Shown here: one piece after another, positions 1,677 through 18,595 of the stretch
How positions within the stretch are numbered: the first letter of the stretch is position 1
Layout of the letters: every line of letters begins with the position of its first letter
NCBI GenBank assembly: GCA_016234655.1
Contig: JACRAU010000033.1
Coordinates: 1 to 64,000, forward strand
Source: Betaproteobacteria bacterium
GTDB lineage: Bacteria > Pseudomonadota > Gammaproteobacteria > Burkholderiales > Thiobacillaceae
Reading direction: 5' to 3'
DNA: 64,000 nt
Translations under genes and position numbers: made by a program
Notes under the pieces: generated by a model
What the model was told of the DNA's origin: nothing
Databases searched by the model: none
The model's input: only the letters and a program-made list of their open reading frames with translations

Positions 1677-1678
1677 GT

Positions 1679-2587
1679 ATGCAGCGTCCTATCGAGATCA
1701 GCGTAGTCATCCCAGCAAAAAACCGTGCCGGCACCTTGCCGGAATGCCTCGAATCCGTTTTAGCCCAGACCTATCCCGCGAGCGAAATCATCGTCGTGGA
1801 CGACGGGTCAACAGACGATACACACATGATCGTGGAATCGTATGCCCCTCGGGGGGTCAGTTATGTACGCCTAACTGTCGGGAAAGGCGCCCAGGCGGCC
1901 CGTAACTTTGGCATTGGCATGGCTAAATGCGAGTGGATTGCATTCCAAGATTCGGATGATGTCTGGCTCCCTGACAAGCTGGCGTTACAGGTCAAAGCCT
2001 TGAAAGAGTATGGCTTCGATCCGCTTACGGTTGTTCATGGCAATGGGCTGAAATGTTTCACTGCCATGGGCAAGAAAATGCCTTTTTCAGTACCGCATAT
2101 GGCAGGGTGGTGCTACGAAAAGCTATTGCTGCAACCCGCGCCGATGTTCCAATCGATGCTCACATCGAAAACTGCGATTTTACAGGCGGTCGGACTCGAC
2201 AACGATTGCCCGTCCTATCAGGAGTGGGACACTTCAATACGCCTGTCGAGGCATTGCCAATTCATGCATATCGAGCAGCCGCTTTTCGAATGGCACTGGC
2301 ATGACGGCGATACCATCAGCAAAGACCTTCGCCGCGACGTATTGGGATTTAACTATGTAATGAATGCACATAGGTCAGAAATCATGGCGGTGCATGGCAT
2401 GAAGGCGTGGAGAAAGCTAAAGATTACGAATGTCGTACGTGCTCTACGCTGGGGCCTATGGGACGAAGCAATGGCCTTTATGAATGGCGAGCCTACTTGC
2501 CCGGCTTTTATTTTTGCGAGGGCGCTGGCTAAGACTCGCCGTTTCCCCGCAGGGACGGCCACGCTATTAAAGCTGCTTGCCGTTTGA
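1679..2587 (+). CDS. Glycosyltransferase family 2
   Basis: A 302-residue GT-A fold glycosyltransferase, likely cytoplasmic, adding one sugar to the growing glycan. The N-terminus carries the GT2 nucleotide-sugar signature (ISVVIPAKNRAGTL, then IIVVDDGSTDDT), followed by a metal-binding acidic motif in FQDSDDVW. The track starts this ORF at 1625, inside the flippase. ATG at 1679, 2 nt after the flippase stop, is better because the GT2 fold begins at once. Base composition resembles the flippase, so the pair looks like one imported unit. Donor and acceptor sugars are unknown. Confidence 0.87.
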   Translation: MQRPIEISVVIPAKNRAGTLPECLESVLAQTYPASEIIVVDDGSTDDTHMIVESYAPRGVSYVRLTVGKGAQAARNFGIGMAKCEWIAFQDSDDVWLPDKLALQVKALKEYGFDPLTVVHGNGLKCFTAMGKKMPFSVPHMAGWCYEKLLLQPAPMFQSMLTSKTAILQAVGLDNDCPSYQEWDTSIRLSRHCQFMHIEQPLFEWHWHDGDTISKDLRRDVLGFNYVMNAHRSEIMAVHGMKAWRKLKITNVVRALRWGLWDEAMAFMNGEPTCPAFIFARALAKTRRFPAGTATLLKLLAV

Positions 2588-2605
2588 TTTTTGGTGGAGA
2601 CATAC

Positions 2606-3043
2606 ATGGTCGACAGGATTACGCACAACAACAAGGAACTTGCACTGATCATACGATCCACCTTCCACAAGGACGGCATCGAGTTCTTCACGCCCGGCAG
2701 CTATTCCCAGCAGATCGGCTACATGAACCGGCCGGCTGGCTACGTGATCGCGCCGCATGTGCATAACCCGGTGGCGCGCGAGGTGCATTACACCAACGAG
2801 GTATTGTTCATTCGTTCCGGCCGGCTGCGGGTGGATTTCTATTCCGAGGATAGGCAATACCTGGAGAGCGCGATTCTCGGTGCTGGCGACGTGATTCTTC
2901 TGGCCCATGGCGGACACGGTTTCGAGATGCTGGAGCCGACCGAGATCATCGAAGTGAAGCAAGGGCCTTATGCCGGCGATCACGATAAAACCCGTTTCGA
3001 TAGCGCCATACCCGCCAAACTGAAATTGCACGATCAATCATGA
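2606..3043 (+). CDS. Cupin-fold small protein of the sugar cluster
   Basis: A 145-residue protein with a cupin-like beta-rich pattern: an APHVHNP metal-ligand-like motif, a central GRLRVDFY strand and a GDVILLAHGGHGF strand with a second histidine. It is probably cytoplasmic. It overlaps the DegT aminotransferase by 4 nt, so translation is probably coupled, and a role in making or modifying the same sugar is inferred. The track starts at a TTG (2591), but the purine-rich GGTGGAGA directly before ATG 2606 favours the later start. No specific enzymatic activity can be assigned; a sugar isomerase or a regulatory sugar-binding protein are both possible. Confidence 0.7.
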   Translation: MVDRITHNNKELALIIRSTFHKDGIEFFTPGSYSQQIGYMNRPAGYVIAPHVHNPVAREVHYTNEVLFIRSGRLRVDFYSEDRQYLESAILGAGDVILLAHGGHGFEMLEPTEIIEVKQGPYAGDHDKTRFDSAIPAKLKLHDQS

Positions 3044-4152
3044 TTCCGGTCAACGAACCGCTGCTCGACGGCAACGAAAAACAATACCTGCTCGAATGCA
3101 TCGAGACCGGCTGGATTTCGTCCGAAGGCCCCTTCGTCAAGCAGTTCGAGGAGCGGTTCGCCGAGCGAGTCGAGCGCCGGCATGGTATTGCCGTCAGCAA
3201 CGGCACGGCGGCGCTGGATGCCGCCATCGAGGCGCTGGGCATCGGGCCGGGCGACGAGGTGATCATGCCCGCCTTCACCATCATCTCCTGCATCGGTCAG
3301 ATCGTGCGGGCCGGGGCCAAGCCGGTGCTGGTGGACAGCGACCCCGTCACCTGGAACATGGATGTCAGCCAGATCGAGGCCAAGGTCACGCCGCGCACCA
3401 AGGCCGTCATGGCGGTGCATATCTATGGCCTGCCGGTCGACATGGACCCCGTGCTGGCCATTGCCCGCCGGCACGGCCTGAAGGTGCTGGAAGACGCGGC
3501 CCAGATGCACGGCCAGACCTACAAGGGCCGGCCTTGCGGCAGCCTGGGCGACGTCGGCACCTTCAGCTTCTACCCCAACAAGCACATCACCACGGGCGAG
3601 GGCGGCATGATCGTCGCCGACGACGACCGGCTCGCCGAGGTCTGCCGGAGCCTGCGCAACCTGTGCTTCCAGCCCGGCAAGCGTTTCGTGCACGAGCGCC
3701 TGGGCTGGAACCTGCGCATGACCAATATGCAGGCCGCCTTGGGCCTCGCCCAATTGGAACGGCTGGACGAATTCGTCGGCCGCAAGCGTGCCATGGGTGC
3801 GCGCTACAACACCTTGTTGAATGGCTTGGCGGGCGCACAACTACCGCTGCCGCGCACCGACTATGCCGAAAACATCTATTGGGTCTACGGCCTGGTGCTG
3901 GACGACGCCCTGGCGCTGGACGCCGAAGAGGCCATGCGGCGCCTGGCGGCGAAGGGCGTCGGCTGCCGCCCCTTCTTCTGGCCCATGCACGAGCAGCCCG
4001 TGTTGCAACAGATGGGCTTGTTTAAGGGCGAGCGCTATCCGGTAGCGGAGCGCCTGGCCCGGCGCGGTTTCTATTTGCCCAGTGGCCTGGCGTTGCAGCC
4101 CGCGCAACAAGACCAGGTCGCGGCGGCGCTGAAGGAAGTACTGCATGGCTGA
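3040..4152 (+). CDS. DegT/DnrJ/EryC1/StrS-family PLP aminotransferase
   Basis: A 370-residue fold-type I aminotransferase of the sugar aminotransferase family, which converts a nucleotide-linked keto-sugar to an amino-sugar. Visible hallmarks are NGTAALDAAIEALGIGPGDEV near residue 54, the PLP-contacting EDAAQ at 151-155, and the likely Schiff-base lysine K181 in SFYPNKHITTGEGG. Length is usual for the family. It overlaps the upstream cupin gene and the downstream methyltransferase (8 nt), forming a tight module. No 4,6-dehydratase lies in the window, so the keto-sugar must come from elsewhere. Family assignment is firm; substrate is not. Confidence 0.92.
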   Translation: MIPVNEPLLDGNEKQYLLECIETGWISSEGPFVKQFEERFAERVERRHGIAVSNGTAALDAAIEALGIGPGDEVIMPAFTIISCIGQIVRAGAKPVLVDSDPVTWNMDVSQIEAKVTPRTKAVMAVHIYGLPVDMDPVLAIARRHGLKVLEDAAQMHGQTYKGRPCGSLGDVGTFSFYPNKHITTGEGGMIVADDDRLAEVCRSLRNLCFQPGKRFVHERLGWNLRMTNMQAALGLAQLERLDEFVGRKRAMGARYNTLLNGLAGAQLPLPRTDYAENIYWVYGLVLDDALALDAEEAMRRLAAKGVGCRPFFWPMHEQPVLQQMGLFKGERYPVAERLARRGFYLPSGLALQPAQQDQVAAALKEVLHG

Positions 4153-4912
4153 GTCAACTCAAGATAAGGCTGATGAGGGCATCTTCGATGCCTATGCCGC
4201 CTATTACGACCTGCTCTACCGGGACAAGGATTACGTCGGCGAGGCCGCCTACGTGCATGGCCTGATCCAGCGCCACAACCCGGCTGCGCGCGAGGTGCTC
4301 GAACTTGGCTGCGGTACGGGAGCGCATGCCACATGCCTTGCCGGCCATGGCTATCGGATCATCGGTGTCGACCGAAGCGAGGCCATGGTGCGGCGAGCCC
4401 GAGCCCGCGCCGCCGACATCGAGTTCACAACGGGCGACCTGCGTAACTTCCGGGCGGGCAAGACCTTCGACGTGGTCCTGGCCTTGTTCCACGTCATCAG
4501 CTACCAGACCGGCAATGCCGACCTTCAGGCGACGATGGCCACGGCGGCCGCGCATCTACGCCCCGGCGGGCTGTTCATCTTCGATTGCTGGTACGGCCCC
4601 GGCGTGTTGTCGGACCCGCCGGCGACACGGGTGCGGCGCCTGAGCGGCGACGGCATCGCCGTGACCCGTATCGCCGAACCCGAGCATCGCCCTAACGAGA
4701 ACCGGGTGGACGTGCATTACGAGGTGCTCGTGGAAGGCCGGCAGGGGCTGCAACGCATCAACGAGACACATGCCATACGCTATCTGTTCGCGCCGGAAGT
4801 CGATCTGCTGCTAGAGACGGCAGGCTTGCGGCGGCTCGCCCTGCTGAATTGGCTGGAGCACGAGCCGCCACGGCTTGCCAGCTGGAACGCCTGCTTCGTT
4901 GTCACTAAATGA
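4145..4912 (+). CDS. Class I SAM-dependent methyltransferase
   Basis: A 255-residue Rossmann-fold methyltransferase. Motif I is EVLELGCGTGAHA (about residues 50-62), followed by an acidic post-I residue in IIGVDRSEAMV and a GDLRNF motif. The family includes N-methyltransferases acting on amino-deoxysugars. Directly behind a DegT aminotransferase, with an 8-nt overlap, N-methylation of the new amino group is a reasonable inference, though O-methylation is possible. Its stop overlaps the start of the next glycosyltransferase by 4 nt, so the cupin-aminotransferase-methyltransferase-GT genes form one transcription unit. Confidence 0.85.
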   Translation: MAESTQDKADEGIFDAYAAYYDLLYRDKDYVGEAAYVHGLIQRHNPAAREVLELGCGTGAHATCLAGHGYRIIGVDRSEAMVRRARARAADIEFTTGDLRNFRAGKTFDVVLALFHVISYQTGNADLQATMATAAAHLRPGGLFIFDCWYGPGVLSDPPATRVRRLSGDGIAVTRIAEPEHRPNENRVDVHYEVLVEGRQGLQRINETHAIRYLFAPEVDLLLETAGLRRLALLNWLEHEPPRLASWNACFVVTK

Positions 4913-6087
4913 AGCGCATCGGCCTTTATCTAGGATTTCCCCCGGAGGGCGGAGGTGCCTTCCAGTATGCCCAGTCCGTGCTCGATGCCTTGGCAAATCT
5001 GCCCCCGTCCCACTATGAGATCGTAGTGGCCCACGCCCACCCAGCCTGGCCGACGAAGCTGGAAAAATATGGTAGCCGTCTCGCACACATCGAGTTGCAC
5101 GAGGGTGGGATGGAGTTTCTGATACGCACCGCACTGCGCTTCGGTCTACCGCTATCCCTCTGGAGGCGGGCGGGCCGGTACCTGCATCCCTTTACCCAGC
5201 GCCTCCTCGACGAGGCCTGTGACCTCTGGCTCTTCCCCGCCCAGGAAGTCTGGACCTACGCTGTACCGACAACCAACCTTGGGGTCATCCACGACCTGAT
5301 GCATCGCTACGAGGCCAGCTTTCCAGAGGTCTCATCCTTTGGCCTCTTCCGCCGGCGAGAGCGCCACTACCGGCATATCTGCGGCTATGCCCGAGCAGTT
5401 CTGGTGGATTCGGAAGTCGGCAAGCGACAGGTGATGGAGTCCTACGGCCAGAGCGCCGATCGCCTTCACGTCCTGCCTTTCGTGGCCCCGGCCTATATGC
5501 ATTCAGATGGTGTTCCGGCTGGATTCGAGCATCGTTATCGTCTCCCCGCGAGATTTATTTTCTATCCCGCCCAGTTTTGGGGGCACAAGAACCACATCCG
5601 CTTACTGCAGGCCATGGCAGCAGTACGCCCGGTCGTGCCTGATCTCCATCTAGTCCTCGCGGGATCGAAGAAGAATGCTTATCCCCGTGTCCTGGAGGAA
5701 ATCGAACGGCTGGACTTGGTGGAGCAGGTGCATGTGCTGGGCTATGTATCTGACGAGGACATGCCGGTGTTCTACCGGCGCGCGCTAGCCCTGATAATGC
5801 CAACCTTCTTCGGTCCCACCAATATCCCTCCCTTGGAGGCCATGGCCATTGGCTGCCCTATGGCCGTCTCCGGCATTTATGCCATGAGCGAACAGGTAGG
5901 TGACGCAGCACTGCTGTTTGATCCTCGCTCGGTAGACGAGATCGCCCAGGCTGTTCTCCGCCTCGCTACGGAGGAAGACCTCCGCCATCGGCTGGCCGAG
6001 GCTGGCCGGGAGAGGGCAGCCCGCTGGGGGCAGGCCCATTTCAACGAGCGCCTGCGAGGCATTCTCGATACGGTATTAGGGACATGA
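4909..6087 (+). CDS. Glycosyltransferase family 4 (GT-B fold)
   Basis: A 392-residue retaining-type GT-B glycosyltransferase. The N-terminal domain starts with KRIGLYLGFPPEGGGAFQYAQSV, a glycine-rich acceptor-side loop. The C-terminal domain has FIFYPAQFWGHKNH and the donor-binding EX7E-like region PTFFGPTNIPPLEAMAIGCPMAVS, as in mannosyl- and glucosyltransferases of the family. It overlaps both neighbours by 4 nt. Likely cytoplasmic or peripheral at the inner membrane, extending a lipid-linked oligosaccharide. Sugar specificity cannot be read. Confidence 0.88.
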   Translation: MKRIGLYLGFPPEGGGAFQYAQSVLDALANLPPSHYEIVVAHAHPAWPTKLEKYGSRLAHIELHEGGMEFLIRTALRFGLPLSLWRRAGRYLHPFTQRLLDEACDLWLFPAQEVWTYAVPTTNLGVIHDLMHRYEASFPEVSSFGLFRRRERHYRHICGYARAVLVDSEVGKRQVMESYGQSADRLHVLPFVAPAYMHSDGVPAGFEHRYRLPARFIFYPAQFWGHKNHIRLLQAMAAVRPVVPDLHLVLAGSKKNAYPRVLEEIERLDLVEQVHVLGYVSDEDMPVFYRRALALIMPTFFGPTNIPPLEAMAIGCPMAVSGIYAMSEQVGDAALLFDPRSVDEIAQAVLRLATEEDLRHRLAEAGRERAARWGQAHFNERLRGILDTVLGT

Positions 6088-7151
6088 GGCTACTCTGTCT
6101 TTGCAAGCGCCGCCCCCAGGGCCGGGATCTTTTTACCCAACCCTACGGCCGCTTCTATCATCTCCCGCGCCTGCTCGCGGAGCGCGGCCATGAGGTGCAC
6201 ATACTGCTCCTCGGCTATCGGAACGAACCCGCCACCTATCGGCAAGAGGGCAATCTGCATTGGCATGCGGTTTCCGCCTTGCACTGGGGGCCTTGGCCCT
6301 ATCTGGCCAAGGCCGGTCGGTTGGCGGCCGATGTCAAGCCGGACTGGGTGTTCGGCCTGTCCGATACTTGGTATGGCATCCTGGCCGAGCGGCTGGCTAG
6401 GCGGCATGGCGCGCGATCGCTCATCGATGCCTACGACAACTACGAGAGCTACATCCCTTGGCTCAAGCCGCTGCACGGCTTGTGGCGGCGCGCGCTGGCG
6501 CGGGCCGACGCGGTGACCGCAGTGGGGCCGCAGTTGGCGGCATGGATGAGTACCTGCGCCGGAGGCCGGCCGGTCGAGGTGATCCCGATGGCGGCGGACC
6601 CCATCTTTGCGCCGCTCGATAAAGCGGCTTGCCGGCAGCAGCTGGGCCTGCCGGCCGATGCAACTCTGGTTGGCTATGCCGGTGCCCTGCACCCCAGCCG
6701 CGACATGGAATTGTTGTTCCAAACGTATGCCCGGCTGCGCGCGGCCGATCTACGAATCGAGCTTGTCCTGTCCGGTCGCCTGGCCAAGGGCATCGCCTTG
6801 CCGGCTGGCACCCATTGGCTCGGCTATCGGCCCGCCGAAGAAGTGCCGTTGATTCTCAACAGCCTGGACTTGGTGTTCGTGCTCAACAAGCCCGGTGCCT
6901 TCGGCGATTACAGCTATCCGGCCAAGCTCTACGAGGCCCTAGCCTGCGGCGTGCCGGTGGTGGCGGCGGATGTGCCGGGGACGGCTTGGGTGCTGCGCGA
7001 TCGTCCCGAGTCGCTAGCCAGGGCGGGAGATGCGGAGGACATGGCTAGGAAGGCGGGGCAGATGCTGGCCTTGGGCAAAACCGTACGCCCCGTGGCTAGT
7101 GTCAGCTGGCAGGAATCAACCGACAAGTTGGAGGAAATTCTTCAACATTGA
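6084..7151 (+). CDS. Glycosyltransferase, GT4-like
   Basis: A 355-residue GT-B glycosyltransferase. It opens with MRLLCLCKRRP and an ERGHEVHILLLGYR N-terminal strand pattern. The C-terminal donor site includes VGYAGALHPSRDMELLFQTY and YPAKLYEALACGVPVVAADVPG. It starts 4 nt inside the previous GT gene and ends the plus-strand half of the glycan cluster; the next genes converge on it from the minus strand. It is slightly shorter than many GT4 enzymes but has both domains. Likely adds a sugar in the same pathway as its neighbours. Confidence 0.85.
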   Translation: MRLLCLCKRRPQGRDLFTQPYGRFYHLPRLLAERGHEVHILLLGYRNEPATYRQEGNLHWHAVSALHWGPWPYLAKAGRLAADVKPDWVFGLSDTWYGILAERLARRHGARSLIDAYDNYESYIPWLKPLHGLWRRALARADAVTAVGPQLAAWMSTCAGGRPVEVIPMAADPIFAPLDKAACRQQLGLPADATLVGYAGALHPSRDMELLFQTYARLRAADLRIELVLSGRLAKGIALPAGTHWLGYRPAEEVPLILNSLDLVFVLNKPGAFGDYSYPAKLYEALACGVPVVAADVPGTAWVLRDRPESLARAGDAEDMARKAGQMLALGKTVRPVASVSWQESTDKLEEILQH

Positions 7152-7229: not shown

Positions 7230-8300
7230 CTAACGCATATGGCGGGCCAGTGCATTTGTGAACCTAGGCCGATCTCTCTGGTCTAGATGCGATCCATCCG
7301 GGCACACGAAGCCGGCCAAATCAAGATGGTCTTCGAAATGAATGGTCATAGCGAAGGTAGATGTCACGATAGGGTCCCAAAACAATTTGCGTGGATATCG
7401 TTTGTCTTCGATCTTCTTGACCAAGCCACTCATGGGCATAACAACGAATATAACCCGGCCGCCACGCGTTTGAATGTTTCTGACGGCTGTTTCGAGTCTG
7501 GGCAGTGCTTCGAGAAAAGTCTTGTTGCTACTGGGTCTGGCCTGATCAATCCGGGCCGCAAGAAAGCTCTCGATTTGCTCCGGAGAGAATCCCGCAGGGA
7601 TCTTTATCTCTTCGCCGAGATTGCGCATTACCCGTGCCAAATAGAAGCTTGGCATGGGCACCATTTGATAATCGGCTGCCCGCGAGCGATCAGGATAGGT
7701 TACCAGGTACTGACGCACCGGGTTGGGATTCAGTAATCGATGATGCAGTGCATCCCAGGGGCGTGCGCCATCTGAAAAATTACGCAGGTTGTCACTTCGC
7801 AGCTGGCCGAGGCGGGCTTCGATCAACCCATAATTCAGTGGTCGTTGGTAGTTGCCTCGGTCGAAATTCTCCTGATATAGATGGCTGGCATCGCGGCGCG
7901 TGCCGCCAATATCGTCGAATTGAATACCGACCAGTACCGTGCCATTGATCTCGGGATCATTCGCCAGCCCCTCCAAGATAGGCACGAACGAGCTGCCATC
8001 TATGGCGAGCTGCACTGGCTCAAGGCCGGTTGCATCGCGCAGGACGGCAAGATCGAAATCCAGCTGCACGCGGGAGGCGCCGACCAGGATCAGGGCGCGC
8101 CGGCCCAACTCTCGTGCCCTCAGGCGTTCCTGCATCCAACGATCCGGGCCGTCCTGCACGGTGGCCTGATAGCCCTTGGCGGCAAGCACCCCTTCGGTCA
8201 GGAAAACATAGGCTGCCGCGATCGTCAGGCCGCCCAACAGCAGCAGCGCCCAAGGCAGGCACGGGATGCGCTGGCTAGAACTGGAAATAGATAAATGCAC
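7230..8300 (-). CDS. SGNH-like membrane-anchored protein, partner of MBOAT
   Basis: A 356-residue protein with one N-terminal membrane anchor (about residues 15-35) and an extracytoplasmic domain. It has SGNH-hydrolase-like features: VGASR with candidate nucleophile S76 and a C-terminal DGSHLD (D335, H338) matching the DxxH block. Proteins of this type (AlgJ, AlgX, PatB) finish the transfer of acyl groups to polysaccharides after an MBOAT protein passes them across the membrane. It starts with GTG, preceded by a strong GGAGG, and overlaps the MBOAT gene by 26 nt, so the pair is translationally coupled. It is not close enough to a named family member for a gene symbol. Confidence 0.72.
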   Translation of the reverse strand: MHLSISSSSQRIPCLPWALLLLGGLTIAAAYVFLTEGVLAAKGYQATVQDGPDRWMQERLRARELGRRALILVGASRVQLDFDLAVLRDATGLEPVQLAIDGSSFVPILEGLANDPEINGTVLVGIQFDDIGGTRRDASHLYQENFDRGNYQRPLNYGLIEARLGQLRSDNLRNFSDGARPWDALHHRLLNPNPVRQYLVTYPDRSRAADYQMVPMPSFYLARVMRNLGEEIKIPAGFSPEQIESFLAARIDQARPSSNKTFLEALPRLETAVRNIQTRGGRVIFVVMPMSGLVKKIEDKRYPRKLFWDPIVTSTFAMTIHFEDHLDLAGFVCPDGSHLDQRDRPRFTNALARHMR

Positions 8301-9693
8301 GTTGCTGTCCTCCGGAAACCAGGAACAGGGAAATCAAACTGCCCGACACCAAGGCCAGTTGCAAGGCCCGGTTTAGCGCGGGAAACCAATCCTCGAGATG
8401 GCGGTTGCGATTAACCCATTGCGTCCGCACGAGGAGATAAAGGCAAAGCAATAACAGCACCATGCCAATAAAATCGTCCGTAGCCTCTCTGTCGAAATCG
8501 ACCAATGCGCTCATCACACCCAGCATTGTAGGGATATCGGGTGAGCGAAAAGGTATCCAGGTCAGGGTGACGACAACGAAGGTCAGCATGCCGGCGGCCA
8601 AGGCGGGGAGACCCGTCTGCGGCAATTTGCCCTGAAACCAGCGGCGCTCGATGAGCAGGTATAGACCGTGCAGGCCGCCCCAGAGCACGAACAGCCAGGA
8701 AGCCCCATGCCATAAGCCGCCGATCAACATGGTGAGCATGAGGTTGATGCCGGTGCGCCGGGCGCCCAGGCGATTGCCGCCCAGGGGGATATACAAGTAA
8801 TCGCGCAGCCAGGTGGACAAGCTGATATGCCAGCGCCGCCAAAAATCCGAGAAGCCAATTGCCGCGAAGGGATGATGGAAGTTATCGGGCAGCTCAAAAC
8901 CAAAACACAAAGCGATGCCGATCGCGCAAAGCGAATAACCGGCAAAATCGCAGAAGATTTGGCCGGAGAAGGCCGCGACGCCCGCCCAGGCGTCTAGCCA
9001 CCCGGTATCCGCAGGAGCGGCATACAGGTCGTCGACCATGGGGGCGAATAGAAAATCGGCCAGCACCACCTTTTGGAACAGTCCGAAGATCAGCAGCAAG
9101 AGACCCCAGCCAAATTTGGCCATGGTGATCTGGCGGCGTTCCAGCAATTGGGGCAGGAAACTTGCGGCGCGGACGATCGGTCCGGCGACCAGCTGAGGGA
9201 AGAAGCTCACGAACAACGCGAAGTCGCTGAGCGAGGACGTGGCCCGTATCTGGCGCCGGTAGACATCGATCGTGTAAGACAAGGCCTGGAAGGTATAAAA
9301 AGAAATGCCTGCTGGCAGCACGATATCGAAGGCAGGCGGTTCATAGGCCACGCCGAAGCGCCCGGCCAGGTCGACGAAATTATTCAGTAGGAATCCGCCA
9401 TATTTGAAATAGCCCAACAGGCCCAGATTGCTGAGCAGACTCAAGCCAAGCAGCATCTTGCGCTGACGCGGGTCGTTCGCATCATCGAGGCGTCGCGCCA
9501 ACCACCAGTCGACGATGGTGGTGAAGGCAAGGAGTAGCACGAATGGTGGGTTCCATGCTGCATAGAACAAGTAGCTGGCGGCGAGCAATAAATACTTGCG
9601 CTGTTGCCAATCGCGCAGAAGCCCATGCAGGGCAAATACCGTCAGCAGGAACAAGACGAAGGTGAGGGTGTCGAAGGGCATTTTGAAACCCAC
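8275..9693 (-). CDS. MBOAT-family O-acyltransferase (AlgI-like)
   Basis: A 472-residue polytopic membrane protein of the AlgI/DltB/PatA group, which moves acyl groups (usually acetyl) across the inner membrane for O-acylation of exported glycans. Diagnostic stretches are FFPQLVAGPIVR, FWRRWHISLSTWLRDYLYIPLGGNR, and the conserved histidines H329 in GGLWHGASW and H342 in GGLHG. About 11-12 membrane segments are expected. A second ATG four codons in (MPFDTL) is an alternative start and resembles the usual AlgI N-terminus. Together with the overlapping SGNH gene it forms an acylation pair within the glycan locus. Confidence 0.93.
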   Translation of the reverse strand: MGFKMPFDTLTFVLFLLTVFALHGLLRDWQQRKYLLLAASYLFYAAWNPPFVLLLAFTTIVDWWLARRLDDANDPRQRKMLLGLSLLSNLGLLGYFKYGGFLLNNFVDLAGRFGVAYEPPAFDIVLPAGISFYTFQALSYTIDVYRRQIRATSSLSDFALFVSFFPQLVAGPIVRAASFLPQLLERRQITMAKFGWGLLLLIFGLFQKVVLADFLFAPMVDDLYAAPADTGWLDAWAGVAAFSGQIFCDFAGYSLCAIGIALCFGFELPDNFHHPFAAIGFSDFWRRWHISLSTWLRDYLYIPLGGNRLGARRTGINLMLTMLIGGLWHGASWLFVLWGGLHGLYLLIERRWFQGKLPQTGLPALAAGMLTFVVVTLTWIPFRSPDIPTMLGVMSALVDFDREATDDFIGMVLLLLCLYLLVRTQWVNRNRHLEDWFPALNRALQLALVSGSLISLFLVSGGQQRAFIYFQF

Positions 9694-9778: not shown

Positions 9779-10537
9779 TCAAGCAACCCGTTCGAGCCGG
9801 TAAACCAAGGTTGGGTTGATCACGGCCAGGCGGTCGAGGAACCAATCCGGCAACGTGGCTACCAGTGTAGCCAGGGCGCCTTTCCCACCTTCAATGGCCA
9901 GAATTTCACGTAGCGCATGAGTGCCCATATATTCGAATTGGAGCCCGCTTTCGCGTAGCAGCCTTTCCACCGAAGATAGCGTCAACGGGCTGCAATCGTA
10001 GCGTGTTCCTCGCCTCATCAAGCGCAAGTAAGGGGTGCGCCAGCATTTGGGCAGCCAACTCAGGAAGGCCAGTCGGTAATGCGGCTCGATCAACATCCAG
10101 CGGTTTGGCACAGCCAAGTAGCCTATGCCGCCAGGCTTCAGTACCCGGCGTAATTCGCTCAGGTGCCGCCGCTGGTCATTTTCCTCGCCGACATGTTCGA
10201 TGACATGGTTGCTCAGCACCACATCGAAGCTTGCTTCGTCGAACGGCAGACGGGTGTCGGCAACTTGCACGAAACGGTAACCCTCTCTGATTTGGCGCTG
10301 ATCGATGACATCCACCGCAGTGACATCACAGTTCAAGGAGTGGTGGGTGGCGAAGTAATGTGCAATACCGCCCGAGCCTGTGCCGATTTCAAGCAGGCGT
10401 AGCGGCTGATGGCGGGTGGATAGCCCCAGCAGCCGCTCGATCTTCAACGCCTTGCCAAAACGGGACGGCAAGTCGAGCACGGCGTGCGGTTGCAAATGCT
10501 CATCAGTCGCCGATTCCATGTCTTCCCGAGCCCCCAT
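9779..10537 (-). CDS. Class I SAM-dependent methyltransferase (Methyltransf_11 type)
   Basis: A 252-residue methyltransferase. Motif I is LLEIGTGSGGIAHYF, followed by VTAVDVID, then FDVVLSNHVIEHVGEE and LKPGGIGYLAVPNRW, the classic order of the ubiquinone/menaquinone-methylase-like fold. The C-terminal third is a variable substrate cap. It overlaps the 3' end of the upstream glycosyltransferase by 35 nt; an internal ATG at 10519 would shorten the overlap. The context points to methylation of a glycan or its lipid carrier rather than small-molecule metabolism. Confidence 0.83.
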   Translation of the reverse strand: MGAREDMESATDEHLQPHAVLDLPSRFGKALKIERLLGLSTRHQPLRLLEIGTGSGGIAHYFATHHSLNCDVTAVDVIDQRQIREGYRFVQVADTRLPFDEASFDVVLSNHVIEHVGEENDQRRHLSELRRVLKPGGIGYLAVPNRWMLIEPHYRLAFLSWLPKCWRTPYLRLMRRGTRYDCSPLTLSSVERLLRESGLQFEYMGTHALREILAIEGGKGALATLVATLPDWFLDRLAVINPTLVYRLERVA

Positions 10538-11783
10538 GTTGGATGATCGAACTCAACAAACGGTGATAAGCCTCTGCAACCGTTGCCCAGCCCATGATCG
10601 AATTCAGACGGTCACGCATGTTCAGGGTGCGGGCATAGGCCGCTTCGGAATTGAGTAAGGTTTCAACGATGCGCCGCGCGAGCTGATCGACCTGCCTTGG
10701 ATCAACCCTCAAATCGGCCTCCGAGGGTTCGAAGATGCTGTCCTGCATCGGCATGTCGCCCACGATCACCGGACAGCCGCAGGCGATGGCCTCCACCGTG
10801 ACTAGGCCCAGCCCTTCCCGGTCGCCACCAGCGGCTTCGACGAAGGGGGCAACGAAAACGCTGGCCCGTCGATACAGTGGCGGTATCTCGGTTTGCGGCA
10901 AGGACCCGATAAATTCGATGTGTCCGGTCATATCCAACTGGGCTGCCAATGTCCGCAGCCGCGCCTCTTCCGGCCCATGGCCGACAATCTTGAGGCATGC
11001 AGCAGGTATCCGCTCGACGATGGCGGGCATGGCCTCGATCAAATAACGCAGGCCCTTTTTCTCCACCAGCCGGCCGACGAACAGAATCTCTCCGGGGCGC
11101 CGATCTTCGACCGGGTCGGCGGCGAACAGCCCGTCGAAGTCGACGCCCATCGGCATGACATGCACCCGCTCGGGCGTGGCCCCCAAACGGATGGCCTCGT
11201 CGACCATGGCCCGGCTGACCACGGTGATGGCGGCGGCGCGCCGGATCACGGCGCGTTTTAGCCATTCGAACAGCCGGCCGCGCAAACCGAACAGGTCGCC
11301 GCCATGCGAGGTGAGCAGAAAGGGCGCGGGCCGCCGCAGGACCAGCCCGAGGCCGGCGGCGACCAAGCCTTGCGGCACGATCCAGTGGGCATGCAGACAG
11401 GCCGGGCGCAAGCGCCGGCTTAGGTGCCAAGTCTTCCAGCCAAGGCCGGCGAAGAACAGCGGCACCAGCAACCATTTCCATCGGTAATGCTTGAGGTTGT
11501 TGAGGATACCGCCATCCTGCACAAGGCTCTCCAGCCGGCCCGGCGCGTAGCGGAAACGGTGCACTTGCACCCCATCCAGCATTTCTTCTGGCAGCGCACC
11601 GGGGGCATGGGGGCAGACGACATGCACCTCGAAGGCGGGGATCAGCCGCCGGCACAACGCATGCACGAAGTTGGGCTCGGGGTCGCCTGCCCAACGAGGA
11701 TAGGTCGAGGCCATGACCAGAAGGCGTGGCTGTTCGCGGGCGGTGGCGTGGATCATCTGCTGGCTCGGCATCGACTGGCGCAA
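10503..11783 (-). CDS. Glycosyltransferase family 4
   Basis: A 426-residue GT-B glycosyltransferase. The N-terminal domain has MASTYPRWAGDPEPNFVHAL and the HAHWIVPQGL acceptor-side motif. The C-terminal domain has EILFVGRLVEKKGLRYLIEAM and the donor EX7E region PFVEAAGGDREGLGLVTVEAIACGCPVIV. These features are typical of mannosyl- or galactosyltransferases in exopolysaccharide synthesis. The first 15 residues (MRQSMPSQQMIHATA) look dispensable, so an internal start is possible. It lies 22 nt downstream of the minus-strand GT2 gene and overlaps the methyltransferase, forming a minus-strand operon. Confidence 0.9.
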   Translation of the reverse strand: MRQSMPSQQMIHATAREQPRLLVMASTYPRWAGDPEPNFVHALCRRLIPAFEVHVVCPHAPGALPEEMLDGVQVHRFRYAPGRLESLVQDGGILNNLKHYRWKWLLVPLFFAGLGWKTWHLSRRLRPACLHAHWIVPQGLVAAGLGLVLRRPAPFLLTSHGGDLFGLRGRLFEWLKRAVIRRAAAITVVSRAMVDEAIRLGATPERVHVMPMGVDFDGLFAADPVEDRRPGEILFVGRLVEKKGLRYLIEAMPAIVERIPAACLKIVGHGPEEARLRTLAAQLDMTGHIEFIGSLPQTEIPPLYRRASVFVAPFVEAAGGDREGLGLVTVEAIACGCPVIVGDMPMQDSIFEPSEADLRVDPRQVDQLARRIVETLLNSEAAYARTLNMRDRLNSIMGWATVAEAYHRLLSSIIQHGGSGRHGIGD

Positions 11784-11805: not shown

Positions 11806-12669
11806 TCACTGCCTATGGTCCTTGTACAGCAGCGTCGTGATCTGCTCCGACACCAGGCCGATCAAGAACACCAATATCGAGGTGATGAACATGAGCGCGC
11901 TCATGTTGGTGAAGCGCCCTAGATGGAGGTAAGTGTAAAAGTAATAGCTCAGCCCGGTCAGAAAGAACGCCAAGCTGATCGGCGCGAACAACTTGAGCGG
12001 CGAATAGAGCGAGCCGATCTTGAAGATGATGAGCAGAAAACGGATTCCGTCCTTCATCGGCCGGATATGGCTCTTGCCTTCGCGCCTGGCCGCCACAATG
12101 GGGATGTAGGCCACCGAATAGCCGGCCCGGAAGAAGGCCATGGTGCTGGTGGTGGGGTAGGAAAAGCTGTTGGGCAAGAGATAAAGGAATTCCCGGAACT
12201 TGTCGGCACCCACCGCGCGGAAGCCGGAGGTCAGGTCGGCCACCTTCTGGTTGACCATCCAACTCGCCAGCCTGTTGTAGACGGTGTTGGCCAAGCCACG
12301 GCCGAGCGTGGCCTGCGAGGCGAAGCCGCGCGCGCCCACGACCATGTCGTGGCCTTCTTCCAATTTGCCAAGCAGGCGGGGGATATCGGCCGGGTCGTGT
12401 TGGCCGTCTCCGTCCATGAACACCAGGATATCGCCCGTGGCGGCACGGGCGCCGGTCTTGATGGCGGCGCCGTTGCCCTTGGCATAGGGGTGCGCGATGC
12501 GGCGCACGCCGTGCCGGCCGCAGACGGCGGCGGTGTCGTCGGTGGAACCGTCGTCGACGACGATGATCTCCGCCGCCGGCATCGTGGTCCGCAGCCGGCC
12601 CAGTAGCGGGTCGAGATTCGCGGCCTCGTTCTTGGCCGGCAGGACGATGGAAATGCGCTGCGCTTTCAT
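11806..12669 (-). CDS. Membrane-anchored GT2, dolichyl/undecaprenyl-phosphate sugar synthase type
   Basis: A 287-residue GT2 enzyme with two C-terminal membrane helices (about residues 218-245 and 252-275). The catalytic domain has ISIVLPAKNEAANL, IIVVDDGSTDDTA and the metal-binding FMDGDGQHDPADI. This architecture matches dolichol-phosphate-mannose synthase-like and GtrB/ArnC-like proteins, which load a sugar onto a polyprenyl phosphate. That product is the kind of donor used by GT-C glycosyltransferases, and the next gene upstream (9 nt away) encodes a GT-C-like polytopic TPR protein. Functional pairing of the two is an inference. Confidence 0.87.
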   Translation of the reverse strand: MKAQRISIVLPAKNEAANLDPLLGRLRTTMPAAEIIVVDDGSTDDTAAVCGRHGVRRIAHPYAKGNGAAIKTGARAATGDILVFMDGDGQHDPADIPRLLGKLEEGHDMVVGARGFASQATLGRGLANTVYNRLASWMVNQKVADLTSGFRAVGADKFREFLYLLPNSFSYPTTSTMAFFRAGYSVAYIPIVAARREGKSHIRPMKDGIRFLLIIFKIGSLYSPLKLFAPISLAFFLTGLSYYFYTYLHLGRFTNMSALMFITSILVFLIGLVSEQITTLLYKDHRQ

Positions 12670-12678
12670 CCGGTTTCC

Positions 12679-14652
12679 TTAGTGCGGCCGTTGATCGGGC
12701 GTTGTCAAGACTTGGGCCTTGTATGAGGCTTGGGCATTAATCGTATTCTTGATGGTAGAGCGCAGCCGGTTCAACTCCTGCCGCCATCTTTTCGGGCTTA
12801 TGCCTTTATAGGGCGGCATGCCGAGGTAACGGTCTATCCTTTGCAGTGCCAGGTCGGGTAGCTCCGCGCTTAAAAAGAGCGGCGGGATCAGCAGCGCGAG
12901 ATCCAGCCTGGGATCCAGTTCAAAGGCCTGCTCGTAATGGACCATGGTGTGGTTGAAGTCACCCGCGCGCAGGTGCAGCCTGGCCTTCAATTCATGCAGG
13001 CTGGCCATGTATTGGTTCGAGGCCCGATACCGCTTATTCGACATCAGGGCGTCGAGCACCTTGTGGATGTGCGCGGGCGTGAGTCCTGGGCAGTCTGTCG
13101 TGCCGAGACCCAAAATCATCTGATGGATAGCATCGATCGAGGCGGTGGTCCTACTGCCATATTTAAGCGTGCTGTCGATGGTGGCGACAAAATCATCGAC
13201 CTGCGCCGCGTCGAGCTTGGCGCAGCCGAGGCCCAGCGCCTGCAAGGCGAGGGCCGTGTCCCTGGGTATGCGTTGATGGGCGTCCTGGATGACTTGTATG
13301 GATTGTTCTCTTTCCCCGGCGTGATACAGCATCCGCGCATGGCTCTGCGCGGCCCTCGCCGATAGTGGGTGTTGGTCGTACGCCAATTTTGCGCCAATGA
13401 AGGGGTTGGCCCAAGTGCTTGCCGTCTGGGATAGCACCCAAAGGAGCAAGGCGCCATACACGCCGGCGACATAGGCCAGATTGATCTTGGTCCTGTGTTG
13501 CATGGCGGCCAAGCCGACGACCAGAAACAGGATCGGGCCGACGGCGGGCAGATAATTGCGGTGCTCGAAATAAAGCTCCAGCGGGACGATGGTCGATTCG
13601 AGCAGATGACCGCCCAGAAACCACAAGACCGCCGCCGCGAACAAGGGGTATTTCTTATGCCAGATCGCGACGGCTACGATCACCCCCAGCCAAGACGCTA
13701 CCGCCACCAGCGTCGTCATCGGTTCGGTCCAGCCGGTCGAGATCGGGTAGTCGTCGCCGAAGATGGAAATGGCGGAGGTGCGGGGCAACACGAGCAACTG
13801 GACGTAGGACCACAGCACCCGCGCCTGCGTCAGCAGTCGCTCGGAAAGGGTGAAATCGCGAACCGCATAAAGCGATTCGGGATCGCCCAACACCAGTTTC
13901 GATAGGTACGCGACGATCAGCAAGATCGGCAGGTACAAAAACAGCGCCTTCCAATAACGCCACGCCCGATCGAGCCGGCCAAGCGCGGGTTGGATCAGCA
14001 CCCATTCCAAGGCCAAGGCATAGACCGGCAGCAGGGCGCCGTTTTCCTTGCTAAGCACGGCCAGCACACCGCCCAGCAGCAGGCTGGCGCTCATGCCGGC
14101 CAATGCGGCCCGAGGGCGCCTTGCCAAATAAGCGCGTGCCTTCAGGTAGCCGACCAGGCCCGCGAGCGAGAAGAGCGCGGCCAGTTCGGTCATGCGTTGT
14201 ACCGGCAAATGCACCGTGGTTATCCATAGCGGGTGAACCAGCCACAGGCCGCAGGCCGCCAACGCGACCCATTCCAGCTTGTCCACCGGCTTCGGCAGTT
14301 GCCTGCCGACCAGCCAGGCCAGCCAGAACAACAATAGGCCGTTGATCAGGTGGATCAGGGTGTTGGTGTAATGGAAATCCTCGGGCGCGTTAGGCCACGA
14401 CGGTGCGTTGACGACAAAAGAGGCCAGGCTCAACGGCCGCCCGGCCGGCCCGGTGTCGCCGCTCTGAATGTATTCCAACGCCGAACCCAGATTGGTGACA
14501 TGGCCCAGGCCGCTCAGGGTGTGTTCGTCGTCGTAGTAGTAGCCGGCGGTAAATGCTGGCTGGTGGACGGAAAAAACGACAGCCAAGACGGCGGACAGCA
14601 CCGCCATGACTGCTAGCGATGGTGTCTTGGCCATTTTGAAAAGGGGAAACAT
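12679..14652 (-). CDS. Polytopic GT-C-like membrane protein with C-terminal TPR region
   Basis: A 657-residue protein. Residues 1 to about 430 contain roughly 11 hydrophobic segments; the rest is soluble and helical with TPR-like repeats (for example ELKARLHLRAGDFNHTMVHYEQAFELDP). The first external loop has an acidic YYYDDEHTL motif, and a SIFGDDYPIS-type loop follows. This resembles the GT-C group of protein O-mannosyltransferases, TMTC-like proteins and the pilin-modifying TfpW of Pseudomonas, which use polyprenyl-phosphate sugars. It sits between a polyprenyl-phosphate GT2 and the pilin gene, so pilin or glycan glycosylation is plausible. A strong terminator separates it from pilA, so it probably has its own promoter. 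Confidence 0.65.
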   Translation of the reverse strand: MFPLFKMAKTPSLAVMAVLSAVLAVVFSVHQPAFTAGYYYDDEHTLSGLGHVTNLGSALEYIQSGDTGPAGRPLSLASFVVNAPSWPNAPEDFHYTNTLIHLINGLLLFWLAWLVGRQLPKPVDKLEWVALAACGLWLVHPLWITTVHLPVQRMTELAALFSLAGLVGYLKARAYLARRPRAALAGMSASLLLGGVLAVLSKENGALLPVYALALEWVLIQPALGRLDRAWRYWKALFLYLPILLIVAYLSKLVLGDPESLYAVRDFTLSERLLTQARVLWSYVQLLVLPRTSAISIFGDDYPISTGWTEPMTTLVAVASWLGVIVAVAIWHKKYPLFAAAVLWFLGGHLLESTIVPLELYFEHRNYLPAVGPILFLVVGLAAMQHRTKINLAYVAGVYGALLLWVLSQTASTWANPFIGAKLAYDQHPLSARAAQSHARMLYHAGEREQSIQVIQDAHQRIPRDTALALQALGLGCAKLDAAQVDDFVATIDSTLKYGSRTTASIDAIHQMILGLGTTDCPGLTPAHIHKVLDALMSNKRYRASNQYMASLHELKARLHLRAGDFNHTMVHYEQAFELDPRLDLALLIPPLFLSAELPDLALQRIDRYLGMPPYKGISPKRWRQELNRLRSTIKNTINAQASYKAQVLTTPDQRPH

Positions 14653-14660
14653 ATACGTAT

Positions 14661-14692
14661 TAAAACAAAAGCCCCGCCGAAGCGGGGCTTGA
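14661..14692 (-). terminator. Rho-independent terminator of pilA
   Basis: A hairpin with stem GCCCCGC/GCGGGGC and a 4-nt loop is followed on the minus strand by a T-rich tail (GCTTTTGTTTTAA). It lies 20 nt after the pilA stop and just before the next minus-strand gene, so it should end the abundant pilin transcript there. Confidence 0.88.
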
Positions 14693-15195: not shown

Positions 15196-15211
15196 TGCGA
15201 GAACCGTGCCA
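15196..15211 (-). promoter_or_regulatory. Sigma-54 (-24/-12) promoter of pilA
   Basis: On the minus strand the sequence reads TGGCAC-N5-TCGCA, close to the RpoN consensus TGGCAC-N5-TTGCA, with the essential GG and GC in place. It is about 50 nt upstream of the pilA start. PilA promoters of other proteobacteria are RpoN- and PilR-dependent, so this is the likely control here. Confidence 0.82.
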
Positions 15212-15337
15212 GGCCTGTTTTTAGCAGACAAAACAATATGCTGCAAAGTATTTCGAGCGCTGGCATGGGCGCGGGCTGACGTTTTTCGTCACTTATGTTG
15301 CCCTGTCGCGTCACTCAAGCCTCGTTACAATCCGGCC

Positions 15338-18300
15338 ATGGAACCCAACCCCCTGCTCGCCGCTCTCGACCCGCATACCAACGTCGTGGTCGAGGCTTGC
15401 GCCGGCAGCGGCAAGACCTGGCTCTTGGTCTCGCGCATGATCCGCCTGCTCTTGGCCGGGGCCGCGCCGTCGGAGCTGCTGGCGATCACCTTCACCCGCA
15501 AGGCGGCGGGCGAGATGCGGGCGCGGTTGCTCGAATGGCTGGAGCTGCTGGCGCTCGGCAGCGAGGCCGAGGTCGTCGAATTTCTCGCCCAGCGCGGGCT
15601 CGGCGCGGCCGAGGCGAGGCGGCTGATTCCGCAAGCGCGCGGCCTGTTCGCCGCCGTGGCCAACGCCCGGCCGGGGCCGGAGATCACCACCTTCCACGGC
15701 TGGTTCCTGAAGTTGCTGGCCCATGCCCCATTGGCGCAAAGGCCACCGGGCAACCTGATCGAGAGCACGGCGCTGTTGCTGGACGAGGCCTGGCTGGGCT
15801 TTGCCGAGTCGCTGCGGGCCAAGGCCGGCGGCCCGGAGGAGCAAGCCTTTAAGGCGCTGATTACCGAACTGCCGCTGGCCAGCGTGCGTCAGTTGCTGGA
15901 AGGCTTTGTCCACAAGCGAGCCGAGTGGTGGGCCTGGGCCGAGGGCCGGGCCTCGCCGCTGGCCGAGGCCGCCGCCGAGCTGAGCACGCTGGCCGGGGTG
16001 GGCGAAGAGGACGATGTCCTGGCCCCACTGTTGGCCGATGAGATTTTTGCGGCGCATGTGCGCGACTACCTCATCCTGCTGGCCAAGAACGGCGAGGGCA
16101 TCAAGAAGGCAGCGGAGCGGGCGGTCATTCTTGAAGCCGCTCTGCTGGAAACCGGCCAGGCGAAATTCGAAGGCCTGAAGGCGGCAATGCTAACCCAGGC
16201 TGGGGCGCCGCTGGCCTGGCCAATGTCCAAGGCCCTGGAACAACGCCTCGGTGCCAACGATGCCCAGCGCTTTGTCGATCTGCATGCTCGGCTGAGTCAG
16301 CGCGTGGCGGAAACCCAGGCCCAGCTCGACGAGCAGGCCGCGCTCCGGCTCAACCGCTGGGGCCTGACCGCCGGCCTTGGCTTCCTCGAGTTCTATCAAC
16401 GGCTCAAGGCCGAGCGCGACGGCCTCGACTTCACCGATGCCGAGTGGGAGGCCTGCCGCCTGCTGGGCGACGAGGAGACCTCGGCCGCGATCCAGATGAA
16501 GCTGGACGCCCGTTACAAGCATCTGCTGCTCGACGAGTTTCAGGATGCCAACCCGCTGCAATGGCGCATCCTGCGCCAGTGGCTGGCGGCCTATGGCGTC
16601 GATGGCGAGCGGCCGACGGTGTTCGTGGTCGGCGACCCCAAGCAGTCGATCTACCGCTTTCGCCGGGCCGAGCCGCGCGTGCTCTTGGAGGCACGCGGCT
16701 TTCTCGAGCGGCATTTCGATGCGCGGTATTTTCCGCAGAACGAGACCCGGCGCTGCGCCCCGGCAGTGGTGGCTTGGCTCAACGCCGCGCTTGGCGGCCG
16801 TGAGGATTACCCAAGCTTCGCCGAGCATCTGGCGCACAGGACGCGGTTGCCCGGTTGGTGCGAATTAATCGCTGTCCCCACCCCAACCCTCCCCGCAAGC
16901 GGGAAGGGAGCGAGCACCTCCCCCACAAGTGGGGGAGGCTGGGAGGGGGAATTCCGCAATCCGCTGACCACGCCGCCGCCGGAGGAGCCGGAAAAACGCG
17001 AGGCCGAAGCCAGGGCGGTGGCCGAACGGATTCAATCCCTTGTTGGCCATCTGCAAGTCGGCGAGCCGCCCCGGCCGGCGCGTTACGGCGACATCCTGGT
17101 GTTGTCCGCCACGCGCTCCGATCTCGATGTGTTCGAGGCCGCATTCAAACGGGCCGGCATCCCCTTCGTCGGCAACCGGCGCGGCGAATTGCTCAACACC
17201 CTGGAGGCGTCCGACCTCACGGCCTTGCTGACCTTCCTGACCATGCCGTTCGACGACCTGGCCCTGGCCCAGGTGTTGAAAAGCCCGATCTTCGCCTTGA
17301 GCGACGGCGACCTGATGGCGCTGGCCAAGCGGGACGAAGGGGCGTGGCACGAACGCCTGCAAGCCTGGGGCGGCGAACCGGCGGCGCCCGCATCTATCCG
17401 GCGCGCGCAACGCCTGTTGGCCGCATGGCTGGCCGATGCCGGCCGGCTGCCGGCGCACGATCTGCTCGACCGCGTCTTCCACGAGGCCGAGGTCGAGCCG
17501 CGTTATGCCGCCGCCGTGCCCGAACGCCTGCGCGCCGGGGTGCTGGCCAATCTACAGGCCTTTCTCGGTCTGACCCTGGAAGTGGGCGGCGGCCGCTATC
17601 CCAGCCTGCCGCGCCTGCTCGACGAGCTCAAGGCCTTGCGCGACAAGGCCGGCGGCGATGCGCCGGACGAGGCGGCGACCGACCACGGCGATGCCGTGCG
17701 CATGCTGACCATCCATGCCGCCAAGGGCTTGGAGGCGCCGGTAGTATTCCTGATCAAGGCCGACGAAGAAGGCGGCGACCGCGAGCACTATGGCACCCTG
17801 ATCGACTGGCCGGCGACCGAGGATCGACCGCGCCACTTTTCCTTGTTCGGTACCAAGAACTGGCGCGGCCACGGCCGCGATGCCCTGTTCGATCAAGAGC
17901 GGCAAATAGCCGCGCGCGAGCGGCTCAACCTACTTTACGTGGCGATGACGCGGGCCGAACAGGCCTTGTTCGTCACGGGTCTCGATACGAGCACGGGTTG
18001 GCTGCCGCCGTTACAAGAGGCATTGGAGCCGCTTGCGGCAGCGCAGCCGCCGTGGATGGTTTGGCGGGAATCGGCCGAGACGGCACCATCGACCGAAGTA
18101 ACGACGGCGCCGCCGCCGTCGTCTCGCCCGGTTGGCCAGTTGCGCGCCACGGCGGGCGCGGAGGCGAGCTTCGGCATCCTGGTGCATCGCTATCTCGAAG
18201 CGCTGACCGGCGGCCAGGCCTTGGCGCCGGACGAACAGACCAGCGCGCCGGCCGTGCATGAGCAGGCCCGCGCCACGGCCGAGCGCTTGATCGCCCGGCC

Positions 18301-18595
18301 CGATCTGGCGCGCTTCTTCGATGCCGGCCGGTTCCGGCGCGCGCGCAACGAACTGGAATACCTCGGCGCGGACGGCGAGCTGCGCCGCATCGACCGTCTG
18401 GTCGAGTTCGACGACGAGGTCTGGCTGCTCGATTACAAGACCGGCGGACTGGACGAGGCTGACCTCGCCCGCCGCGCCGCGCCGCACCTCAAGCAGATCG
18501 CCGACTACCGCCAAGCGGTGGCGGCGCTTTACCCCGAGCACGCCGTGCGTGCCGCCCTGATCTTCACCGACGGCCAGCTCTACGTCGCGCCTTAA
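15338..18595 (+). CDS. addA: UvrD-family helicase with C-terminal nuclease (AddA/RecB-like)
   Basis: A 1085-residue ATP-dependent 3'-5' helicase/exonuclease for double-strand-break repair. Motifs in order: Walker A ACAGSGKTWLL (residues 20-30), Ia AITFTRKAAGEM, Walker B LLLDEFQDANP, III VVGDPKQSIYRFRRAEP, V LTIHAAKGLEAPVVFL, VI LLYVAMTRAEQAL, and a C-terminal PD-(D/E)XK nuclease motif (RIDRLVEF...WLLDYKTG). The start at 15338 is chosen because the helicase fold begins at once; the track start adds 44 unlikely residues. No addB lies beside it, which is unusual. Around residues 510-545 a low-complexity PTLPASGKGASTSPTSGGG segment is encoded by a REP-like element inserted in frame. Confidence 0.88.
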   Translation: MEPNPLLAALDPHTNVVVEACAGSGKTWLLVSRMIRLLLAGAAPSELLAITFTRKAAGEMRARLLEWLELLALGSEAEVVEFLAQRGLGAAEARRLIPQARGLFAAVANARPGPEITTFHGWFLKLLAHAPLAQRPPGNLIESTALLLDEAWLGFAESLRAKAGGPEEQAFKALITELPLASVRQLLEGFVHKRAEWWAWAEGRASPLAEAAAELSTLAGVGEEDDVLAPLLADEIFAAHVRDYLILLAKNGEGIKKAAERAVILEAALLETGQAKFEGLKAAMLTQAGAPLAWPMSKALEQRLGANDAQRFVDLHARLSQRVAETQAQLDEQAALRLNRWGLTAGLGFLEFYQRLKAERDGLDFTDAEWEACRLLGDEETSAAIQMKLDARYKHLLLDEFQDANPLQWRILRQWLAAYGVDGERPTVFVVGDPKQSIYRFRRAEPRVLLEARGFLERHFDARYFPQNETRRCAPAVVAWLNAALGGREDYPSFAEHLAHRTRLPGWCELIAVPTPTLPASGKGASTSPTSGGGWEGEFRNPLTTPPPEEPEKREAEARAVAERIQSLVGHLQVGEPPRPARYGDILVLSATRSDLDVFEAAFKRAGIPFVGNRRGELLNTLEASDLTALLTFLTMPFDDLALAQVLKSPIFALSDGDLMALAKRDEGAWHERLQAWGGEPAAPASIRRAQRLLAAWLADAGRLPAHDLLDRVFHEAEVEPRYAAAVPERLRAGVLANLQAFLGLTLEVGGGRYPSLPRLLDELKALRDKAGGDAPDEAATDHGDAVRMLTIHAAKGLEAPVVFLIKADEEGGDREHYGTLIDWPATEDRPRHFSLFGTKNWRGHGRDALFDQERQIAARERLNLLYVAMTRAEQALFVTGLDTSTGWLPPLQEALEPLAAAQPPWMVWRESAETAPSTEVTTAPPPSSRPVGQLRATAGAEASFGILVHRYLEALTGGQALAPDEQTSAPAVHEQARATAERLIARPDLARFFDAGRFRRARNELEYLGADGELRRIDRLVEFDDEVWLLDYKTGGLDEADLARRAAPHLKQIADYRQAVAALYPEHAVRAALIFTDGQLYVAP
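16871..16951. repeat. REP-like palindromic element, double unit, inside addA
   Basis: Two adjacent GC-rich hairpins (CCCTCCCCGC/GCGGGAAGGG and CCTCCCCCAC/GTGGGGGAGG), each with its flank, form a roughly 80-bp element. The same unit occurs at 20016 and 26131. It is translated in frame within the helicase gene without a stop codon, adding a Pro/Ser/Gly-rich loop. Confidence 0.8.

Follow-up and report, generated by a model that had tools for sequence, protein, structure and literature searches.

Two genes that follow the type IV pilin gene pilA raise the question of whether they encode a pilin glycosylation system. The earlier note on this DNA had described a DPM1-like glycosyltransferase of family 2 with C-terminal membrane helices, and a polytopic protein with an acidic first-loop motif and a TPR tail. 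It proposed that they may act together on the adjacent pilin and thereby link the glycan locus to pili. Both open reading frames were found, at 11806-12669 and 12679-14652 of the window, by which we mean the whole stretch of 64,000 nucleotides analysed here. They are called GT2 and GTC below.

The pilA operon and its surroundings

The minus-strand genes running from 15146 to 7230 are closely packed in the order pilA, hairpin, GTC, GT2, GT4, methyltransferase, MBOAT and a protein without a family (Table 1). The spacers are 59 bp between pilA and GTC, 9 bp between GTC and GT2, and 22 bp between GT2 and GT4. PilA has the prepilin cleavage site G/FTLIE and a C-terminal pair of cysteines, and a Shine-Dalgarno-like AAGGAGATA lies just 5' of its gene. 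The cluster of Ser/Thr residues formed by T56, T59, S60, T62 and T63 (mature numbering) contains candidate modification sites, and is located close to the region modified in Pa5196 pilin.

Table 1. Features of the minus-strand cluster, with positions in the window
Feature	Position	Strand	Profile match
pilA, major type IV pilin, 144 aa	14712..15146	-	PF00114 E=6.5e-16; N_methyl E=1.2e-9
Intrinsic-terminator-like hairpin between pilA and GTC, 9 bp stem, T-rich tail; candidate attenuator	14669..14690	-	
GTC, GT-C transferase with TPR-like tail, 657 aa; putative pilin O-glycosyltransferase	12679..14652	-	
GT2, 287 aa; putative polyprenyl-phosphate sugar synthase, donor maker for GTC	11806..12669	-	PF00535 E=2e-30
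GT4 glycosyltransferase; possible extender of the lipid-linked sugar	10503..11783	-	PF00534 E=3e-34
SAM methyltransferase, gene overlapping that of GT4; may modify the glycan	9779..10537	-	PF08241 E=5e-18
MBOAT (DltB/AlgI-like) O-acyltransferase; possible glycan acylation	8275..9693	-	PF03062 E=2e-34
MBOAT-partner protein, AlgJ/SGNH-like by position only	7230..8300	-	no Pfam match

In 52 of 64 related loci, the gap that separates pilA from GTC contains a strong hairpin with a T tail, as compared to 11% of shuffled gaps. This arrangement matches the attenuated layout of pilin accessory genes in other bacteria, which are preceded by such terminators (PMC11841053).

The genes at 228-7151 on the plus strand encode a MOP flippase, a GT2, a DegT aminotransferase, a methyltransferase and two GT4 proteins. 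They converge on the pilA operon and form a separate unit, and the link between this glycan locus and the pili that the earlier note had drawn is no more than a possible one, as the two do not share an operon. The Wzx-type flippase lies here, at 228-1673; the minus-strand operon contains no flippase gene, and a Pfam scan of its genes identified none of the GtrA type.

The genes for MBOAT and its partner (7230-9693) also occur after GT2 at a locus from another family (L070), where the MBOAT homolog directly follows GT2 and is 55% identical to the window protein, and is itself followed by a homolog of the partner with 50% identity. O-acylation of the pilin glycan is a possible role for the two. 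Divergent from pilA is a gene for a UvrD/RecB-type helicase-nuclease (15206-18595), and in three genomes belonging to the same family (L016, L018 and L019) the cassette is flanked by homologs of it, so that the cassette occupies a fixed chromosomal site there.

Predicted fold and conserved residues of GTC and GT2

GTC contains about ten strong hydrophobic stretches within its first 410 residues. Its sequence matched no Pfam or NCBIfam family beyond weak TPR matches near residues 553-586, and a profile search against PDB chains gave no sequence-level match; the PDB and Pfam searches returned TPR noise or nothing. An AlphaFold model built from 37 homologs had a pLDDT of 92 and a pTM of 0.90. TPR solenoids swamped the fold search when the full-length model was used, and the core alone (pLDDT 92.2) was then compared to the PDB with Foldseek. 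Ranks 1-15 were all GT-C-fold proteins, comprising AglB, Pmt4, PglB, ArnT, STT3-type oligosaccharyltransferases (some in translocon complexes) and a GPI transamidase subunit, with probabilities of 0.99-1.00 and TM-scores of up to 0.55, but with modest E-values of 0.006-0.06. By its modeled structure, GTC is a GT-C fold enzyme with a predicted transferase activity.

Eleven residues are invariant in all 37 aligned homologs, namely D41, D42, R72, N97, R153, K202, Y283, D300, E363, R365 and Y367, and E203 next to K202 is nearly so. In the TMTC proteins, the motif map places a DD pair in loop 1, followed by R-P, R and K-E motifs, and the last loop carries an E/R/Y motif (PMC7801869). The order D41 D42, R72, R153, K202, D300 and E363-R365-Y367 in GTC corresponds to that of M1 to M5 and M7 among the TMTC motifs, in a mapping done by eye. 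The acidic first-loop motif noted earlier is the invariant pair D41-D42, and the GT-C fold and catalytic residues agree with the likeness to TfpW and TMTC proteins that the earlier note had pointed out. The TPR tail was also borne out: TPR_19 matches 27 of the 37 members at E<=1, and the tail is modeled as helical pairs.

The description of GT2 as DPM1-like agrees with its PF00535 domain, its relatives in the PDB, which are DPM synthase and ArnC, and its two hydrophobic C-terminal helices at residues 211-229 and 256-274. The residues D86, D88 and G89-Q90-H91 in the DGDGQH region are near-invariant among 56 sequences. The best NCBIfam profile is AglJ (residues 6-280), at 117 bits against a cut-off of 325, and the protein falls far below every NCBIfam equivalog cut-off, giving it no named equivalog membership. 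As judged from its sequence, GT2 is similar to enzymes charging polyprenyl phosphate with a sugar, although the profile does not tell which sugar. Where a same-strand reading frame adjoins GT2, the next gene is a GT4 in 30 of 57 loci, so that many species probably extend the glycan in the manner of the AglJ pathway.

Association with pilin genes and GT2 across genomes

Homologs of GTC were identified in 12 of 101 relatives and in 28 of 399 genomes of the order, and a profile search identified relatives in 89 of 274 genomes of the class. Among 91 loci not located at contig ends, pilA is directly upstream in 75, GT2 directly downstream in 68, and both in 62, by a neighbor criterion that misses some true neighbors. 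The adjacency of pilA, GTC and GT2 is found again in dozens of genomes that represent many gammaproteobacterial families, which is far beyond chance. The position beside the pilin gene to which the earlier note had drawn attention is thus not peculiar to the window. That note had also named the occurrence of the pair in genomes without type IV pili as evidence against its proposal; PilQ scored over the cut-off in 34 of 34 genomes. GTC and GT2 occur together in 27 of the 399 genomes of the order, as compared to one with GTC alone and two with GT2 alone (Fisher p 2e-38, a value that ignores relatedness). GT2 is a dedicated partner of GTC. A scan of genome contigs with the protein as query added one remote Bryobacterales locus only, with no pilin nearby. 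One GTC match contains a single TGA stop (G031:C11:43669-45510), and another contains several stops and is likely a decayed copy (G623:C1:1406327-1407898).

The median identity is 59% for GT2, 33% for the GTC core and 29% for the globular part of the pilin. The conservation of GT2 while the GTC core and the pilin diverge is consistent with a constant donor and a varying acceptor. Once the GT2 background is taken into account, pilin and GTC co-diverge weakly (partial r 0.13, p 0.02). The co-divergence of the pilin and the TPR tail is weak as well. Two or more tandem copies of GTC are present at 17 of 103 loci, and these may have different target sites on the pilin or attach one sugar after another. 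Two or three copies stand beside pilA and GT2 at L018, L051, L054, L071, L133, L146, L156, L161, L168 and L179. Sixteen of the 91 loci are located away from pilA, three of them beside genes for MSHA-type minor pilins, which suggests that the GTC family also serves MSHA pili. The minor pilin genes that directly adjoin GTC at these loci (L145, L155 and L189) are MshO-like by eye.

In a family labeled Pseudomonadaceae, as inferred from the P26 RNA of one genome (G504), there are three kinds of pilA-adjacent GT-C/TPR genes, here called clades A, B and C. Clade A proteins are like that of the window and always accompanied by GT2, whereas the proteins of clades B (about 620-640 aa) and C (about 540 aa) are not; GT2 was found in 11 of 11 clade A genomes versus 0 of 34 others. 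D41, D42, R72, R153, K202, E203 and Y283 are common to all three. TfpW is the pilin arabinosyltransferase of Pseudomonas group IV pilins, and DPPR synthase is the entry enzyme to D-arabinofuranose. DPPR synthase was identified in 7 of 7 genomes with clade B, 0 of 4 with clade C, 2 of 11 with clade A and 2 of 12 controls, and in three genomes (G871, G940 and G910) it lies within about 5 kb of the clade B gene on the same contig. The combination of DPPR synthase in every genome with the absence of GT2 makes clade B the probable TfpW clade. Clade A would use a donor other than D-arabinofuranose, most simply the product of its own GT2. In the genome of the window, which is 92% complete, the best match to DPPR synthase (E=2.3e-4) was far below the cut-off and at the generic UbiA level. 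We rejected the possibility that the GTC of the window is TfpW itself, given that its genome lacks DPPR synthase and that the probable TfpW clade lacks GT2 (0 of 7).

Clade C proteins of about 540 aa are encoded directly behind pilA at L202, L206, L207 and L211, and similar proteins occur in relatives of the window genome (L235, L236, L237, L240 and L241). Neither GT2 nor, where searched, DPPR synthase accompanies them.

A second GT-C/TPR gene in the genome of the window encodes a protein of 717 aa with a PMT_2 match (E=2.6e-4; L190:10981-15594, G000 contig C13). It is located 135 bp behind a gene for a 774-aa, cysteine-free, S-layer-like secreted protein with 26% Ser+Thr and no Pfam match, and the pair is followed by genes for a GT4, a DPM-like GT2 and ManC. 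The same pair is present in a genome from another family (L072:6597-10752, G332) with a gap of 148 bp, and the two S-layer-like proteins share 41% identity (E=2e-122). These genes possibly represent an S-layer glycosylation pair.

Proposed role, alternatives and comparison with known systems

The fold, the catalytic residues, the linkage to pilA, the terminator layout and the strict co-occurrence of GTC and GT2 all agree with the pilin glycosylation pair that was proposed at the outset as a predicted activity. We consider it likely, with a probability of about 0.78, that pilA, GTC and GT2 form a cassette for pilin O-glycosylation that is fed by the polyprenyl-phosphate sugar of its own GT2, in parallel to TfpW. 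On the cytoplasmic side, GT2 would load a sugar onto undecaprenyl (polyprenyl) phosphate, and in the genome of the window, GT4, the methyltransferase and MBOAT may lengthen or decorate the lipid-linked sugar. The charged lipid would be flipped across the membrane, and GTC would move the glycan in the periplasm onto Ser/Thr residues of PilA before pilus assembly, probably helped by its TPR tail in binding the pilin. The terminator after pilA would allow only part of the transcripts to run on into the enzyme genes.

A serious contender, to which we give a little less than even odds, departs from this explanation in glycan size only. Here, GTC would be an oligosaccharyltransferase that transfers a whole chain initiated by an AglJ-like GT2 and built by GT4 and others. 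The enzyme behind the AglJ profile starts a phospho-linked oligosaccharide in haloarchaea, oligosaccharyltransferases (AglB, PglB and STT3) are among the top fold matches, roughly half of the loci that have a gene after GT2 carry a GT4 there, and the operon in the window adds a methyltransferase and MBOAT. However, GT4 is absent next to GT2 at about one locus in two, implying that a monosaccharide suffices or that the extenders are encoded elsewhere. It is unlikely that GTC is a general O-glycosyltransferase with a role like that of PglL, acting on many periplasmic proteins including the pilin. The copies away from pilA and the relatives adjoining other surface-protein genes would fit such an enzyme, but the fast divergence and the tandem duplications beside pilA fit a dedicated one, and TfpW is reportedly restricted to pilins. 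More unlikely still is a three-component decoration system of the Gtr type for LPS or exopolysaccharide, whose position next to pilA would be due to chance or to regulation. The combination of a polyprenyl-phosphate sugar synthase and a GT-C protein is a hallmark of periplasmic glycan modification (PMC11127046), and glycan genes lie near the cassette. Yet this would leave the adjacency to pilA in dozens of families, the pilA attenuator and the TPR tail unexplained, and the operon contains no GtrA-like gene.

If GTC glycosylates pilin, as the preferred explanation holds, pilus glycosylation would be far commoner than assumed, which would bear on pilus-specific phages, adhesion and twitching: about a third of the sampled gammaproteobacterial genomes carry a relative, mostly beside pilA, that is unnamed in the family databases searched. 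The cassette would further offer a bacterial model of the TMTC-type architecture of core plus TPR, in which the genes for the donor enzyme, the transferase and the acceptor adjoin each other, and the available enzyme-pilin pairs could be used to study how such enzymes recognize one protein. A broader proposal, which we hold to be possible rather than probable, is that the cassette represents another pilin glycosylation system, spread across the class and different from TfpO/PglL and TfpW, within a larger family of TMTC-like GT-C/TPR proteins encoded behind their own acceptors (type IV pilins, MSHA pilins and S-layer-like proteins). No description of the pilA-GT-C-GT2 unit was identified in the open-access literature searched, and an earlier mention elsewhere is possible.

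TfpO, PglL and TfpM, the Wzy_C-type O-oligosaccharyltransferases, share a role in pilin or general O-glycosylation but belong to another protein family, and GTC has no Wzy_C match. AglJ, DPM1, GtrB and ArnC have in common with GT2 a catalytic domain acting on polyprenyl phosphate and, in several, the C-terminal helices, whereas GT2 of the window lies far below the equivalog cut-offs of NCBIfam. PMT/Pmt4, ArnT, PglB and AglB share the fold, being the top core matches with a probability of 1.00, but differ in having other acceptors and no profile-level match to GTC in the PDB. The TMTC1-4/GT105 O-mannosyltransferases resemble GTC in combining a GT-C core with a TPR tail and in the matching series of motifs. 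However, the last-loop motif is EHRNY rather than ERxxY, and GTC is bacterial and linked to pilins. TMTC_DUF1736 (PF08409) had no match in the GTC members scanned, and a search of 150 genomes with this profile found nothing, which carries little weight since no control matched either. TfpW differs in its donor route but is similarly a GT-C enzyme encoded directly after pilA, with a terminator between pilA and the accessory gene and a lipid-phosphate sugar as donor, and the proteins of the probable TfpW clade, through which the comparison was made rather than through the sequence of TfpW itself, share with GTC the seven residues common to clades A, B and C.
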